Of a stretch of 64,000 bases of DNA, positions 3,001 to 60,158 are shown one piece after another. The notes beneath the pieces are model-generated. The model saw only the letters and a list, made by a program, of their open reading frames with translations. It ran no database searches and was not told the DNA's origin. This stretch comes from a virus: the IMG/VR virus record IMGVR_UViG_3300034683_000041, positions 1 to 64,000 of that record. One strand, written 5' to 3'. Each line of letters opens with the position of its first letter. The first letter of the stretch is position 1. The translations under genes and the position numbers were made by a program.

Positions 3001-3591
3001 ATGATTCTACATGAGATCAACTTGTACGTCCCAGTCTTCGTATCTGCACCTAAGCAGATACTGTCTTCTATGAGAATTCAGAAAATTGGTCCTATACTGG
3101 AAGATATTCCGACGATCACTTACTATCAAAAGAAATCTGCTCCAGACCAGAATCTGGAAGTGACAAGTAGTGATCAACATCCTGGAGTTATAAAGTGGAG
3201 ACAATTAAAATCCAAGGTGTACTCTTATGCACACGGCGTACTTCAATGTACGTATGACACACAGTACATATCCGGAACCACGAATAGTGAAGGAAAAACT
3301 TTTCCTGAAATGACTGAGTTAGATCCGTACATGCATGTAAGTATCCTCAATTCGGGATCTTTTTGCTGGACCAACCAGATAGAAAACCCAGAAGTTGTCA
3401 GGATTAATCACTGTAACATTGGAGGATATGGAGAGTTTATCCAACTTCGGTATTCCCCTCAAAATCACAAAACCTCAATTGAAGATATTTGTGCACTTGC
3501 AAACGTGTTAATAGTAAAGGGATGTCTCCCTATTCTAACACCTTTACAAGAAGATATCTATCTTCGCCTTCATTGTGAAGGAACTTTGTAA
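3001..3591 (+). CDS. Unknown phage protein
   Basis: 196 residues, ATG after AGAAGGAAAC. Predicted soluble and beta-rich by eye. Followed by a strong UUCG-loop terminator (3614-3650). No family recognised. Confidence 0.7.
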   Translation: MILHEINLYVPVFVSAPKQILSSMRIQKIGPILEDIPTITYYQKKSAPDQNLEVTSSDQHPGVIKWRQLKSKVYSYAHGVLQCTYDTQYISGTTNSEGKTFPEMTELDPYMHVSILNSGSFCWTNQIENPEVVRINHCNIGGYGEFIQLRYSPQNHKTSIEDICALANVLIVKGCLPILTPLQEDIYLRLHCEGTL

Positions 3592-3613
3592 CATACACAG
3601 TCTTACTATTCAT

Positions 3614-3650
3614 AACCATCGTACTCTTCGGAGTACGATGGTTCTTTTTT
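3614..3650 (+). terminator. Intrinsic terminator with UUCG tetraloop
   Basis: 13-bp perfect stem (3614-3626 with 3631-3643), TTCG loop, then C and six T. One of the clearest terminators here; it ends the 2074-3591 group. Confidence 0.9.
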
Positions 3651-3735
3651 CGGTGTCCGGTATACGGGGTTCTTAAGAACCCATTTTCACTATATTCAAA
3701 AAAGACGTTCATTTTCACTTGAACGCTGGGAGAGC

Positions 3736-15834: not shown

Positions 15835-17178
15835 ATGTCTGAAGTACAAAATACTATCGTAGCTACAGATGACAATATCGTGTACATCGTTAGCTCCGAG
15901 ATCAAACGGTTGGGAGACCGTGCTGATCTTAATCACATAGATGTCAGTAACATTACTGACATGTCGTGTCTGTTTAATACGTCTTCATTCAATGGAGACA
16001 TATCCAAGTGGAATGTATCAAACGTTAAGGATATGTCTTGGATGTTCTCAGAATCTGAGTTCAATGGAGACATATCTGACTGGAATGTATCTGGTGTAGT
16101 AAACATGCACGGCATGTTCTCACATTCTAAGTTCGATCAGGATATATCGAACTGGGATGTGTCTCATGTTGAAGATATGTCTTATATGTTCGATGAGTCT
16201 CAGTTCAATCAAGACATATCGTCTTGGGACGTATCGAACGTTACTGAGATGAATAACATGTTCGAACGTTCTGTATTCAATGGGGATATCGCATCCTGGG
16301 ATGTCAGTAACGTTAAGAACATGCGTACAATGTTCACATACTCACGATTCAACAGAGATATCTCCCGGTGGGATGTGAGTAATGTGGTATTCATGTCTTG
16401 GATGTTTGCATCTTCAGTATTCGACGGGGATATATCTGGATGGGATGTATCCAACGTCAGAGATATGTCTCACATGTTCGAACGTTCTAAGTTCAATCGG
16501 GACATATCTAAATGGAATGTGTCTAACGTTAAATACATGCAACACATGTTCTCAGAATCAATATTCAACCAAGACATATCTTCTTGGAATATTGGTCGAG
16601 TAAAAGATATGTCTGGCATGTTCGAACGTTCGATATTCGATCAGGACATATCCCGATGGGATGTGTCGCACGTTACAAATATGTTTGGAATGTTCTCACA
16701 CTCTAAGTTCAAAGGGGATCTATCCAAATGGGACGTAAGTGAAGTCGAGAACATGCGCTGCATGTTCTCAGAATCTGTGTTCAATAGAGACATATCCATG
16801 TGGGACGTATCGAACGTTAAAGATATGTTTGGTATGTTCACAAATTCGATGTTCAACCAAGACATATCTGACTGGGATGTCTCTAATGTTAAAACAATGA
16901 AAGGGATGTTCTCAAAATCCAGGTTTGACCAAGACATATCGACATGGAATGTGTCTCAGGTTACAGATATGTCTTGGATGTTCTATAGATCCGTGTTCAA
17001 CCAGGACATAGCTTTGTGGGACGTGTCTAACGTAACTGGCATGGAATATATGTTCTACCGTGCTAAGTTCAATCAAGACATATCCCGATGGGATGTGTCC
17101 GATACGACTGACGTATCCGGCATGTTTGAAGGATCTCCTTTAGAACAACATCCTCCGATGTGGAACAAACAAAAATAG
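15835..17178 (+). CDS. BspA-like / DUF285 repeat protein
   Basis: 447 residues, ATG after AAGGAGAATC. After about 35 residues the protein is almost entirely a 24-residue repeat of the form FNxDISxWDVSNVxDMxxMFxxSx, present about 16 times with a degenerate first copy. This is the DUF285/BspA-type solenoid, known from Mycoplasma lipoproteins, Listeria and other surface proteins that bind partners. No signal peptide or anchor is visible, so it probably acts inside the cell or on the virion. A TATATTAC element and flanking hairpins suggest a single-gene early transcript, which would point to a host-interaction role. Near-identical repeats may expand or contract by recombination. Confidence 0.85.
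   Translation: MSEVQNTIVATDDNIVYIVSSEIKRLGDRADLNHIDVSNITDMSCLFNTSSFNGDISKWNVSNVKDMSWMFSESEFNGDISDWNVSGVVNMHGMFSHSKFDQDISNWDVSHVEDMSYMFDESQFNQDISSWDVSNVTEMNNMFERSVFNGDIASWDVSNVKNMRTMFTYSRFNRDISRWDVSNVVFMSWMFASSVFDGDISGWDVSNVRDMSHMFERSKFNRDISKWNVSNVKYMQHMFSESIFNQDISSWNIGRVKDMSGMFERSIFDQDISRWDVSHVTNMFGMFSHSKFKGDLSKWDVSEVENMRCMFSESVFNRDISMWDVSNVKDMFGMFTNSMFNQDISDWDVSNVKTMKGMFSKSRFDQDISTWNVSQVTDMSWMFYRSVFNQDIALWDVSNVTGMEYMFYRAKFNQDISRWDVSDTTDVSGMFEGSPLEQHPPMWNKQK
15965..17120 (+). repeat. 72-bp tandem coding repeats
   Basis: DNA-level repetition of a 72-bp unit (24 codons) within the DUF285 gene; GACATATC, TGGGATGT and ATGTTC recur in register. Units have diverged mostly at linker codons. Confidence 0.85.
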
Positions 17179-55736: not shown

Positions 55737-57659
55737 CTAGATGTTAGCAGCATTTGGTATGATGCACATCCTCAAAGTTCCAATAGGAACACACACCTCA
55801 CGCAATCTTCTACAAAGCTCCGTTGTCATGTGTGCAGTCTGTGATGGAGGTCCAGATATCCGATCAGGAGTTATGTGCCGGATACATTCTTCAAGTTGTG
55901 TTTTGTCTTGAGGATTGTTGATCTTCCTAAGATCCAGTACGTCAAAATACATAGTTTTATCGTATACTTGTTCGTATGTGAGATGTGAGTCTAATGCAAG
56001 CATCCATTTGTCAGGAAGTTCCGAACTAGACAGATCTCCTCGAAGTACCGACAAAAACGTTTCCTTAAAAGACTTTGATAAAATATCAAGTATAGTTTTT
56101 TGAAGGTCATGTTCTCCATAGAACGTCTCTTCAGCATCGCAAGTATACGTGTCTACAAGATTCTTGGTAATCCAATACATCTTGTACATCGCATTTACAA
56201 CAATACCTGCATCGATCGCTTGTATAGCGGAACCTATGCAGTCTTCAGCAAGAGCTTTGCCAGCTATCACGTCATGTGAAGTTCCACCAATATCAAGATA
56301 CATTTTATTCACATACAGAAGATCACTAAGTCCGGTTTCTAATTCGGTGATCTCGGCAATGTTGGCGGTATGCTCGTTACGACACAACTCTAAGATCTCA
56401 TCTATCTTTTGATATGAAGCTTTGAACTGTGGATATTTATCCATGTTCTTTAATGCAGGATGAGAGTTATCCCCTTCAACAACGTCTGGGATGATGTTAG
56501 AGATACGGATGTCTGTTCTATCCACATGCACGGATGCACCTTCAATTATGCATTCTCTGATATCGGGAAGCATGTCGTCATATCCGAACGACTTAACGTT
56601 GGCTTTTCCGTTGATACTGAGAGCTTTCCAAGGAAGACCGTATCGAGTAGACTCTGTAGGATATACCCCAACGATCACAACGGCTTTAGTCAGTTCCATC
56701 CATTTCCGGAAAAATTCGCGTACTGTAACTCCTATACCTTGACTTGTTGCAGGAACCATCACCACATGAGGTTTGATAGTATCTTCCGTTCCTATCTCGG
56801 TAAAGTATTCGATGATCTTGGTAGTTTCGTCAGAAACGTCCATGATGTTTTTCGGAAGAACAAGAAGATTAACATCATCAGCTTCATATACTCTACCGCC
56901 TTCTCGATTCAGATGATGAATACTACAAGAATCTATAGCAATATTCCTGAACCGATATTCGCAATTTTCAACTCCAACAGAAAACGTTTTTTCTGTTTCG
57001 ACATTTCTGGTGCGATAGTCGATACTGGAAGAAGATCCAGCTAAAGGCATGTTCAAGAATATTTCTTCTATAGCTTTAGCAAGTTCAATATTTCCACCAG
57101 AGGCAGTCAGAGACTGGATATATGCCATCTTACCTATTGCTTGCTGTCGACTGATGTCAAAACGTTTTTCAAGATCTTCGACTTTGAGTACGATATCCTT
57201 TGAAGAATTTAAGACTTGGTCAAACATCTTCGCAAAAGCCAAGTTCATTTCGTATATGGAATAATTTTCAAATTTATCAGACGCTTCCAGCATGTTCCGT
57301 ATGAAATTACAAGCCATGAGCATGGAAGTGGTCGTACCATCTTTACAAGACTGATCAACTCGACGTCCAATATAAGCTATCGCACTTTTGAGGTGTTCCT
57401 GTGCAGGGTTAATGCACTCTATAGCTCCAAGGACTTTAGATCCATCTCGGATAAATGCCCGTATCTGCAAAGTAGGATCGGCACTATTACCAGACATACT
57501 TGCAGAATAGATCAGAGTATTTCTAGCAAACGGACCACATATGGTGGTAAGGTGCTGAGTAAAACTCTCAAGGGTCTGGGTAAGAATGTGTTTAAGGTCT
57601 TCACCCTGTATGGTGTTCGTAACGTTTTGAAAAGATTTTAACTTCAAAGGTTCAGCCAT
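55737..57659 (-). CDS. GroEL-like (group I-type) phage chaperonin
   Basis: 640 residues, ATG with AGGAGATAC upstream. GPFAR at 42-46, R71-D72-G73 and D107-GTTT correspond to the GroEL GPKGR, TKDG (Asp52) and DGTTT nucleotide motifs. D473 in AEDCIGSAIQAIDAGIVVNA corresponds to catalytic Asp398, but the usual GVVAGGG glycine loop reads GIVVNAM. The C-terminal Gly-Gly-Met tail is absent. About 90 residues longer than GroEL. Phage EL and a few other giant phages encode ATP-dependent single-ring chaperonins; a similar protein-folding role is inferred. No GroES-like gene is seen nearby. Confidence 0.82.
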   Translation of the reverse strand: MAEPLKLKSFQNVTNTIQGEDLKHILTQTLESFTQHLTTICGPFARNTLIYSASMSGNSADPTLQIRAFIRDGSKVLGAIECINPAQEHLKSAIAYIGRRVDQSCKDGTTTSMLMACNFIRNMLEASDKFENYSIYEMNLAFAKMFDQVLNSSKDIVLKVEDLEKRFDISRQQAIGKMAYIQSLTASGGNIELAKAIEEIFLNMPLAGSSSSIDYRTRNVETEKTFSVGVENCEYRFRNIAIDSCSIHHLNREGGRVYEADDVNLLVLPKNIMDVSDETTKIIEYFTEIGTEDTIKPHVVMVPATSQGIGVTVREFFRKWMELTKAVVIVGVYPTESTRYGLPWKALSINGKANVKSFGYDDMLPDIRECIIEGASVHVDRTDIRISNIIPDVVEGDNSHPALKNMDKYPQFKASYQKIDEILELCRNEHTANIAEITELETGLSDLLYVNKMYLDIGGTSHDVIAGKALAEDCIGSAIQAIDAGIVVNAMYKMYWITKNLVDTYTCDAEETFYGEHDLQKTILDILSKSFKETFLSVLRGDLSSSELPDKWMLALDSHLTYEQVYDKTMYFDVLDLRKINNPQDKTQLEECIRHITPDRISGPPSQTAHMTTELCRRLREVCVPIGTLRMCIIPNAANI

Positions 57660-57675
57660 GTGTATCTCCTATATT

Positions 57676-57975
57676 TTAATCCGACAAGTCATGGATAAGG
57701 TCATTTTCAATCTTAGAATTTGCAGCACTACGCTTTTCCATGGTCTGTATGATTTTATTATAAGTCACAGTATCCAAATTTAAGAGATCTGTCAAACGCA
57801 GTCCCAGTGTACGATAGATCGGATATCTATCCATATCTACAAGAACATTTTCAAGCATCACTGAAGAAGGGGGATCTGACAATTCAGTAACCATGAATCC
57901 AGTGATCCCCCCTTTACGTCTAACAGATTTTCCTATCCGTCCCGCAAGATAAGCTTCGTTAAAGCTAGTGGTCAT
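57676..57975 (-). CDS. C-terminal extension of the 58065 gene, probably reached by a -1 frameshift
   Basis: The ATG-to-stop frame is 99 residues, but the ATG at 57975 has no clear ribosome site. The same frame is open upstream to 58131, overlapping the 3' end of the 697-residue gene, and encodes natural-looking sequence before the ATG (RVFYDSGGRFVPL, then ISKWSKIVEAAPEDGISWA). The overlap contains six consecutive T on the minus strand (58100-58095). A -1 slip there would fuse the two into about 827 residues. Alternatives are an independent 99-residue protein or an indel. Confidence 0.5.
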   Translation of the reverse strand: MTTSFNEAYLAGRIGKSVRRKGGITGFMVTELSDPPSSVMLENVLVDMDRYPIYRTLGLRLTDLLNLDTVTYNKIIQTMEKRSAANSKIENDLIHDLSD

Positions 57976-58064
57976 GATCGCCCAGCTTATCCCGTCTTCA
58001 GGAGCAGCCTCAACGATCTTTGACCACTTCGATATATACTCATCTACATGTTCGTCCGTGGTGG

Positions 58065-60158
58065 TTAACGGGACAAATCGTCCACCACTATCATAAAAAA
58101 CACGTAGAGCATATCGAGCGGAAGAAGTCCATTAACAACTTGTTCAGGTTCTCGTCCACATTTGGGACACGCAGAATACAGTGCTGCGAAATGCGAACAC
58201 CGGTTATCGTTGTAGATCTCAAAGAAGTCTTTGGAAAAATCTTCAACTTCAGGACGAGACTGTAACTGATCCAATATCTGTACAAGTGCAGAAGGATCGT
58301 CTACACTAACCTGATTGCCCGTTTTAGGATGTACCATTTTGACACGGCGAATCCAAGGAGCAATTTGCTGGTATTTTCTATAGCTCAGCGCTTCAGAAAC
58401 CGCAGAGATGTCTCGAAGAGAAACAACTTCTGCAAGTCGGGCAACAAAAGCTAACCCAGACTCTATCCACTGTGCAACTGTGGGAGTCTCCATCTCAACA
58501 TATACGGAAGAACCTACATGTACTGTACGTTTTCCTTTCAAAAACTCATTACGGTATTTCTCTAATTCTTCGGCAGTACGAGGAGTATTGCTCAGAATGA
58601 AATTCAGAGCCTCACCGTTAAGTTTTTGGAAATCGATATGTCTAAGTTTTTTAACATCCACTTTTGCAGTATCGACATACCCGCATTCCGGATGATTGTC
58701 AACAAAATCGATTTCTGTACCTTCAGGGTACATAAGACAAGCTACTGCCCAGACACAAGAATCGAAGTCGTGAAATGATACGTTCTTCCAGAAAACTTCT
58801 TCAAGAGAAGTTCCGGCTTCTGCTTTCAGTGTAGTTTTACAAATCAGTTTAAGGAACAGATCTGCAAAATTCTTTTTCAAGGACACAGAAGCAGGAGCGG
58901 AAGCAAGTTCTCCGAAAAGATATCCGTATTCTCGTTCTGCAGCTCGTGCATCAGAGATAAATGCATGAAGTTCTGCTTTAGTCGGAGGACGTAAAGTTAC
59001 AGTCAATCCACTGTTATAGAGTTTCAGACTAAACAAAGGACTGATGTAGGGAAGGAACTGTTGTGCTGCATTAGGACCACTGATAACGTGGTCTTTTTTC
59101 AGATTGATATTTTCCGGACTCAAGATAACATCTGAGAGGATTTTACCATTTTTCAGTTTTGTTCTAGGACGCAGATATTTTGTATCGCACTTTTCCAACG
59201 ATTCTTTTTCTGCTTGTGTTTCTCTACCAGAAGATTGGTAACTACGATAAAGTGTAGACGGAAATGTTTTAGGATCGTTCAATGCCGAGATCTTAAGTAG
59301 CTGTCTTTCTTTAGGCTCATCAGATTCCGGGGTAACACTACCCATCTGACGATTGATATACGTAGGGTGAGTTACAATAGTAGTAGCTTTCGGATTTTCT
59401 GTTATAGCCTCTGTCCAAAACGGTATCAGAAGTTCTTCTTCAGCTGCAATAAGTCGTTGAGCTTCTTCTTCTGTCAAATATTCGTCCTCATCAGAAGACA
59501 TCTCATTAACCGAAGAATTCTCCAGTACTTCATCGGAAACCATGATAGGCTCCAACATATCTTCCAAAGACCTAGAACTATCCAAATCCATTTCTTCATT
59601 TACAGATTCCTGAGGTTCTACTACTTCCTCTTCAGGAGTCAACAGATCTTCAGCTATCTGTTCCACAGGAAACTCATCCAAGTCATCGTACATATCTTCA
59701 ACGAGGGAAGAGTGTTCTTCCGCCGCAACTTCTTTTGGTTCTTCTTCAGTATCTTCTAAAGGAGTACCATCCAATCCAGGGGAATATCCTTGGATCTCTT
59801 CAGAAGTGGTTGCTGTATCTGCCGCAACTGAAGATACTCCTTCAGTATCTACATTAAGTCGAGTATCTTGCGTTTGAGAAACACTCTTGATCTCGTCACT
59901 GAATTTCATGGTAATATTCTCCGTATCTGACTTTACCGTTGGACGGTAGGGTTTATTATTTTCATGATCAGACATATCAATAGGCATAGTCTTCTCCTGA
60001 CGAATGGGTTTTGGTTTTCTTTTTTGTATATCTGAAAGACTCATGGGAGTAGAGCCTTTATGATTTACCGTAATGGGTTTAGGTTGAAATTTTGAAGCAG
60101 GCTTTTGTACTGGAAGTGTTGCTCCAGTTATATCTGTCGTTGGTCGTCTAGTAGGCAT
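58065..60158 (-). CDS. Probable structural or baseplate-hub-like protein with Cys clusters
   Basis: 697 residues from ATG 60158, which has GAGGAG 7 nt upstream and overlaps the preceding stop; an in-frame ATG at 60296 lies deep in the upstream gene. Residues 1-100 are basic and Pro-rich; about 130-260 are very acidic and disordered. The C-terminal half is folded: FHDFDSCVWAVACLMYPEG then HPECGYVDTAKVDVKKLRHI, faintly like T4 gp26-type hub proteins, and CSHFAALYSACPKCG, a likely zinc site, near the end. Probably extended by frameshift into 57676-57975. Confidence 0.55.
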   Translation of the reverse strand: MPTRRPTTDITGATLPVQKPASKFQPKPITVNHKGSTPMSLSDIQKRKPKPIRQEKTMPIDMSDHENNKPYRPTVKSDTENITMKFSDEIKSVSQTQDTRLNVDTEGVSSVAADTATTSEEIQGYSPGLDGTPLEDTEEEPKEVAAEEHSSLVEDMYDDLDEFPVEQIAEDLLTPEEEVVEPQESVNEEMDLDSSRSLEDMLEPIMVSDEVLENSSVNEMSSDEDEYLTEEEAQRLIAAEEELLIPFWTEAITENPKATTIVTHPTYINRQMGSVTPESDEPKERQLLKISALNDPKTFPSTLYRSYQSSGRETQAEKESLEKCDTKYLRPRTKLKNGKILSDVILSPENINLKKDHVISGPNAAQQFLPYISPLFSLKLYNSGLTVTLRPPTKAELHAFISDARAAEREYGYLFGELASAPASVSLKKNFADLFLKLICKTTLKAEAGTSLEEVFWKNVSFHDFDSCVWAVACLMYPEGTEIDFVDNHPECGYVDTAKVDVKKLRHIDFQKLNGEALNFILSNTPRTAEELEKYRNEFLKGKRTVHVGSSVYVEMETPTVAQWIESGLAFVARLAEVVSLRDISAVSEALSYRKYQQIAPWIRRVKMVHPKTGNQVSVDDPSALVQILDQLQSRPEVEDFSKDFFEIYNDNRCSHFAALYSACPKCGREPEQVVNGLLPLDMLYVFFMIVVDDLSR

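Follow-up and report, generated by a model that had tools for sequence, protein, structure and literature searches.

The closest described counterpart of the locus presented here is the G/GT pair of phage lambda, in which the short form, gpG, is a small protein that binds the tape measure and the extension of the long form binds the tube protein, neither product being part of the virion. Tail-assembly frameshifts of this kind were reportedly found to be conserved in long-tailed phages by Xu, Hendrix and Duda in 2004. In a general review, the ratio of short to fused product is described as crucial for gpG and gpGT, and T4 is named as the exception to G-T frameshifting (PMC5009743). T4 gp26 and gp51 are counted among the hub assembly chaperones, the latter being absent from the final particle (PMC3004832).

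The window analysed in this work is a stretch of 64,000 nt (positions 1-64,000 of IMGVR_UViG_3300034683_000041, whose numbering is used throughout), drawn from a 118-kb IMG/VR record and carrying phage RNA polymerase subunit genes. The gene under study encodes a protein with an acidic, low-complexity N-terminal half and a conserved C-terminal domain (Table 1), and we put at about 0.9 the probability that it is read with a programmed -1 ribosomal frameshift that yields a short and a long form, the short one probably acting as a tail/baseplate hub assembly chaperone. The frameshift itself is well supported by sequence comparison; that the step is ribosomal and the slippage partial, we infer. In frame 0 the slip site is read as TAC GTG TTT TTT ATG ATA, and the frame ends 30 nt past G_TTT_TTT. 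Most ribosomes would read ..Y-V-F-F-M-I-V-V-D-D-L-S-R and stop, giving the short form of 697 aa, and a fraction would move back by one base at the T-run, where tRNA-Phe is paired, and read on as ..F-F-Y-D-S-G-G.. in the -1 frame. With a slip after the second Phe, 139 residues are added to the first 688, and the long form would thus have 827 residues, the size foreseen in the original prediction, with a helical C-terminal domain by which it would probably gain a second binding domain. A single mRNA would set the ratio of the two forms, as with lambda gpG and gpGT. The T6 run in the overlap, the -1 frame open from 58131 and the zinc site near the junction, all part of the same prediction, are present as described, the CPKCG motif lying about 23 residues ahead of the junction. 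Since antisense ORFs in the same region reach 194 aa, the length of the open frame alone is no evidence in the window.

Table 1. Features of the window (coordinates in nt; all belong to the frameshifted gene except the last four).
Feature	Position	Strand	Remark
Frame-0 gene, 697 aa	58065..60158	minus	ATG 60158, TAA 58065
Conserved C-terminal domain	58095..59090	minus	Ends at the FF codons; zinc-ribbon-like CPxC; AlphaFold model
Slip site G_TTT_TTT (T6 run)	58101..58095	minus	Perfect re-pairing at -1 possible for the second Phe codon
Open -1 frame	58131..57679	minus	Stop at 57678-57676; open across the slip site
-1 extension, 139 residues plus stop	57676..58095	minus	Joined after the first 688 frame-0 residues
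ATG-started ORF, 99 residues	57676..57975	minus	Forms the 3' portion of the extension; no clear ribosome site
Possible stimulatory hairpin GTGGTGG/CCACCAC	58058..58088	minus	17-nt loop; 6 nt past the slip site
GroEL-like chaperonin, divergent	55737-57659	minus	phrog_5725, E 1e-7; directly downstream of the frameshifted gene
447-aa ORF	15835-17178		Matches repeat-containing phage families
Tandem repeat	16801-17033	plus	Period 72 nt, 3.2 copies; within the 447-aa ORF
tRNA-Leu, anticodon TAA	33214-33300	plus	Sole tRNA gene of the window

The frame-0 protein belongs to the phrog_4585 family (E 5e-32). By tblastn it matched 92 records of phiKZ-related jumbo phages, with a best E of 8e-19 for phage DT01, and a phiKZ-like query matched 209 records. 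Its direct homologues include phiKZ gp77, 201phi2-1 gp136, SPN3US gp227 and RAY gp267, and the 201phi2-1 record annotates the family as similar to phiKZ gp77 and EL gp47. In these four phages (phiKZ, 201phi2-1, SPN3US and RAY) the slip site is the same and the downstream ORF is homologous to the -1 extension, the two halves (e.g., gp136/gp135, gp227/gp226 and gp267/gp266 in the last three) being annotated as separate hypothetical proteins. The phage of the window is remote from the isolates, with about 20% identity over the conserved domain. IMG/VR searches with the frame-0 protein (P0001), its C-terminal domain and the GroEL-like neighbour returned no close relatives of the window, a scan with alignment A5 found none, and tblastn with P0002 alone gave no match. 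A profile HMM built from the -1 peptides of the relatives, with the window left out, ranked the -1 frame of the window first among 585 six-frame pieces, with an E of 4e-5 and the next piece at 0.43. This match spans the final 50 residues of the extension (a helix, GLxxxxLLNL and a long helix), and on these residues, in which the homology resides, the extension of the window is assigned by sequence to the -1 family of its relatives.

The comparison set comprised 115 loci, grouped into 95 clusters at 90% identity; its IMG/VR members were gathered by two scans, the patterns of one of which did not include FF. The -1 frame extends at least 300 nt beyond the frame-0 stop in 94 of the 95 clusters, and such a +1 frame exists in none of them, counts in which the clusters are taken as independent, an assumption that holds only in part for related phages. 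At the same loci, the -1 frame is open past the stop in 93/94 homologues versus 28/399 control ORFs. The same domain ends with a T-run, or at least T_TTT, in 26/26 phages and in 88/88 full-length IMG/VR loci. All 26 phages examined have Phe codons on the T-run at the same place, with the -1 frame open across it, and in 25 of them this frame continues into the downstream ORF, which is a separate CDS wherever it is annotated in the phage records. The exception is RVTF4 (L011, a Pseudomonas phage; region 3135-3724 of that locus), where the -1 frame runs for 58 codons before it stops, with the CDS downstream of it in the third frame; its close IMG/VR relatives are intact copies with the -1 frame open throughout, and the early end probably reflects either an indel introduced by sequencing or a genuine lesion of that record. 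The open -1 frame is kept by each of the 88 distinct full-length IMG/VR loci, 83 of which have X_TTT_TTY and the other five T_TTT. Through this comparison of sequences, two-frame coding and its conservation across the phiKZ-related phages are demonstrated, and the frameshift postulated between the 697-residue protein and the 99-residue ORF gains its main support from the -1 frame kept open past the stop in 93 of 94 homologues against 28 of 399 control genes.

The same comparison bears on a sequencing error, by which the T count would be off by one in a truly continuous gene. Homopolymers are error-prone and the window is a single metagenome contig, but the two-frame layout recurs in 95 clusters that include many isolates sequenced independently, and a search for naturally fused copies among the roughly 115 loci found none with both domains in one ORF. 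As an explanation for the family, this is already refuted by the sequences compared, and its probability is negligible; for the T-run of the window, the miscount that had been named as the refuting outcome is very unlikely, with the layout shared by all clusters and G_TTT_TTT recurring among them. The check on relatives proposed at the outset, for one continuous gene or a conserved slip site, came out in favour of the conserved slip site, and the absence of any locus with the two domains in a single ORF hints that both products are needed.

An in-phase slippery heptamer X_XXY_YYZ, or a close variant, is present at the junction. By cluster (n=95), T_TTT_TTT was found in 46, T_TTT_TTC in 27, G_TTT_TTT in 9 and others in 13, i.e., one of the first two in 73/95, and variants with G, A or other bases in 22/95, the window included. 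The G_TTT_TTT of the window also occurs in Burkholderia phage FLC9 and in several IMG/VR phages; tandem re-pairing there is imperfect, because heptamer position X is G and not T. The first slip Phe is encoded by TTT in 90/90 clusters, and elsewhere in the same genes TTT averages 37%. The element common to the sites is a Phe codon TTY with a T before it, so that the P-site tRNA-Phe can re-pair at -1. In five IMG/VR loci (L065, L071, L070, L079 and L082) the frame-0 FF pair is absent, with T_TTT and the open -1 frame kept, and a single P-site slippage may suffice in them.

The T-run could also be a place of transcriptional slippage, whereby the phage RNA polymerase would insert an extra U and part of the mRNA would be fused. 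This fits the homopolymeric nature of the site, T6 to T8 in most loci, and the fact that phiKZ-like phages have multisubunit RNA polymerases of their own, with subunit genes in the window itself. However, the layout is kept in the 8/95 clusters with only five T (e.g., Noxifer, phiHQ and L070), which argues against polymerase slippage, and the T-run is held in phase as Phe codons within -1-compatible heptamers, mostly T_TTT_TTY. We therefore regard transcriptional slippage as improbable, and it is nonetheless the likeliest of the three alternatives considered here.

Evidence on how the -1 frame is entered comes from the region that follows the frame-0 stop and precedes any potential -1-frame start codon, compared in 22 independent pairs. 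The differences numbered 36 at first, 24 at second and 95 at third codon positions, and the changed codons comprised 62 synonymous and 46 non-synonymous cases. Since this region has no ATG, GTG or TTG, protein-level selection in it calls for ribosomes arriving from frame 0, and the comparison thus shows that the -1 frame is translated from upstream. The impression that the -1 frame is protein-like ahead of its first ATG is thereby confirmed in the relatives, and in the window, too, no ATG, GTG or TTG precedes ATG 57975.

These data also weigh upon the reading implied by the annotations, in which two separate proteins are produced, the 3' ORF using a start of its own or being translated by coupling. 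It is called as its own CDS in the phage records, and the window offers an ATG at 57975; yet the -1 frame evolves as protein ahead of any possible start codon, the first start codon is found at positions ranging between codon 2 and codon 151 of the extension, and the conserved FFYP and HxxxxxFG motifs lie upstream of most annotated 3' ORF starts. As had been predicted, the ATG of the window has no clear Shine-Dalgarno sequence before it, and the next gene is preceded by AGGAG. Two separate proteins are thus a very improbable outcome, though a less improbable one than the sequencing error.

As for elements that could stimulate the proposed ribosomal frameshift, no conserved downstream RNA structure was found in 68 clusters (mean z of -0.4, the same as at control positions, in a calculation of structures other than pseudoknots), and an upstream Shine-Dalgarno-like stimulator gave no family-wide signal. 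The hairpin of the window is well placed and energetically ordinary (z of -0.93), and it is not conserved in the family.

Regarding function, the AlphaFold model of the frame-0 domain (pLDDT 89, pTM 0.88) was compared with BFVD by Foldseek and matched the predicted structures of several T4-like baseplate hub or hub assembly proteins with E values from 1e-6 to 1e-4, with TM-scores by target of up to 0.70 and whole-domain values by query length of 0.30-0.54. In a comparison of the models with solved structures no significant match was obtained. The model of the -1 domain gave weak structural matches (E of 0.02 or worse), several of the best being to the corresponding small proteins in phiKZ-like phages. 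Thus, the predicted frame-0 domain resembles the fold of T4 gp26/gp51 (PF12322), with which it also shares the CxxC motif and, in the case of gp26, a domain ending at FF. Membership of PF12322 (T4_baseplate) by sequence was not supported, with no match at E 10 in nine phiKZ-like records and the window record, in a search where T4 gave 8e-65 and 2e-53. Profiles of the gp26 and gp51 families compared with the fusion reached at most 43% probability, over the zinc knuckle only. In the 201phi2-1 record a note of detection by mass spectrometry accompanies the neighbours gp138 and gp139, and gp135 and gp136 are without that note.

The most likely role of the family, judging from the modelled fold and the analogy with lambda gpG/gpGT, would be that of a tail/baseplate hub assembly chaperone made in a short and a long form; it is from the fold that the original notion of a tail gene draws its support. 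Both systems share a -1 frameshift shortly before the first ORF ends, a short protein and a longer fusion, a second ORF without a conserved start of its own and a probable part in tail assembly, and, as in the tail-assembly frameshifts of long-tailed phages, the two-frame layout is conserved while the sequence diverges. In contrast with gpG, the first ORF of the phiKZ family is much larger (490-700 aa) and carries a zinc-ribbon-like motif and the T4 gp26/gp51-like fold. The slip site of the family is Phe-Phe, and, unlike G/GT, its gene does not lie between the tube and tape-measure genes; it is found near an RNA polymerase subunit gene in isolates and beside the GroEL-like gene in the window.

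A further, tentative idea, which we hold to be possible and somewhat less probable than its negation, is that phiKZ-related phages make from a single gene, by -1 frameshifting, both forms of hub-assembly chaperone that T4 makes from two paralogous genes, one of them short and resembling gp26, with its end at FF, the other long and resembling gp51, with an extension at the C-terminus. In T4, unlike the phiKZ family, gp26 and gp51 are separate genes; the first of these proteins stops at FF and the second runs on, a hint that in T4 the same pair may be encoded by two genes. The C-terminal extension of gp51 beyond the Pfam domain shows no profile similarity to the -1 domain of the family, and homology between the two was tested for and not found, the score lying below the best column-shuffled controls. 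If the idea were true, the same problem would have been solved in two ways, by the frameshift module and by the T4 gene pair, and T4 as the known exception to tail-gene frameshifting would be explained.

phiKZ is a well-studied laboratory phage. In a search covering the literature outside subscription, no paper was found that reports a frameshift for phiKZ, 201phi2-1 or SPN3US; the core-genome paper makes no mention of frameshifting, and the partial text of the general review does not mention phiKZ (PMC5009743). The predicted long form was missed in the phage records examined because the two halves are annotated separately. With the proposed frameshift, what stand in about 200 phage records as two hypothetical genes without relation to each other would become one recoded gene, and the phiKZ-related jumbo phages would gain a candidate equivalent of lambda G/GT.

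Elsewhere in the window, two minor features were recorded, namely the tandem repeat within the 447-aa ORF and the single tRNA gene (Table 1).
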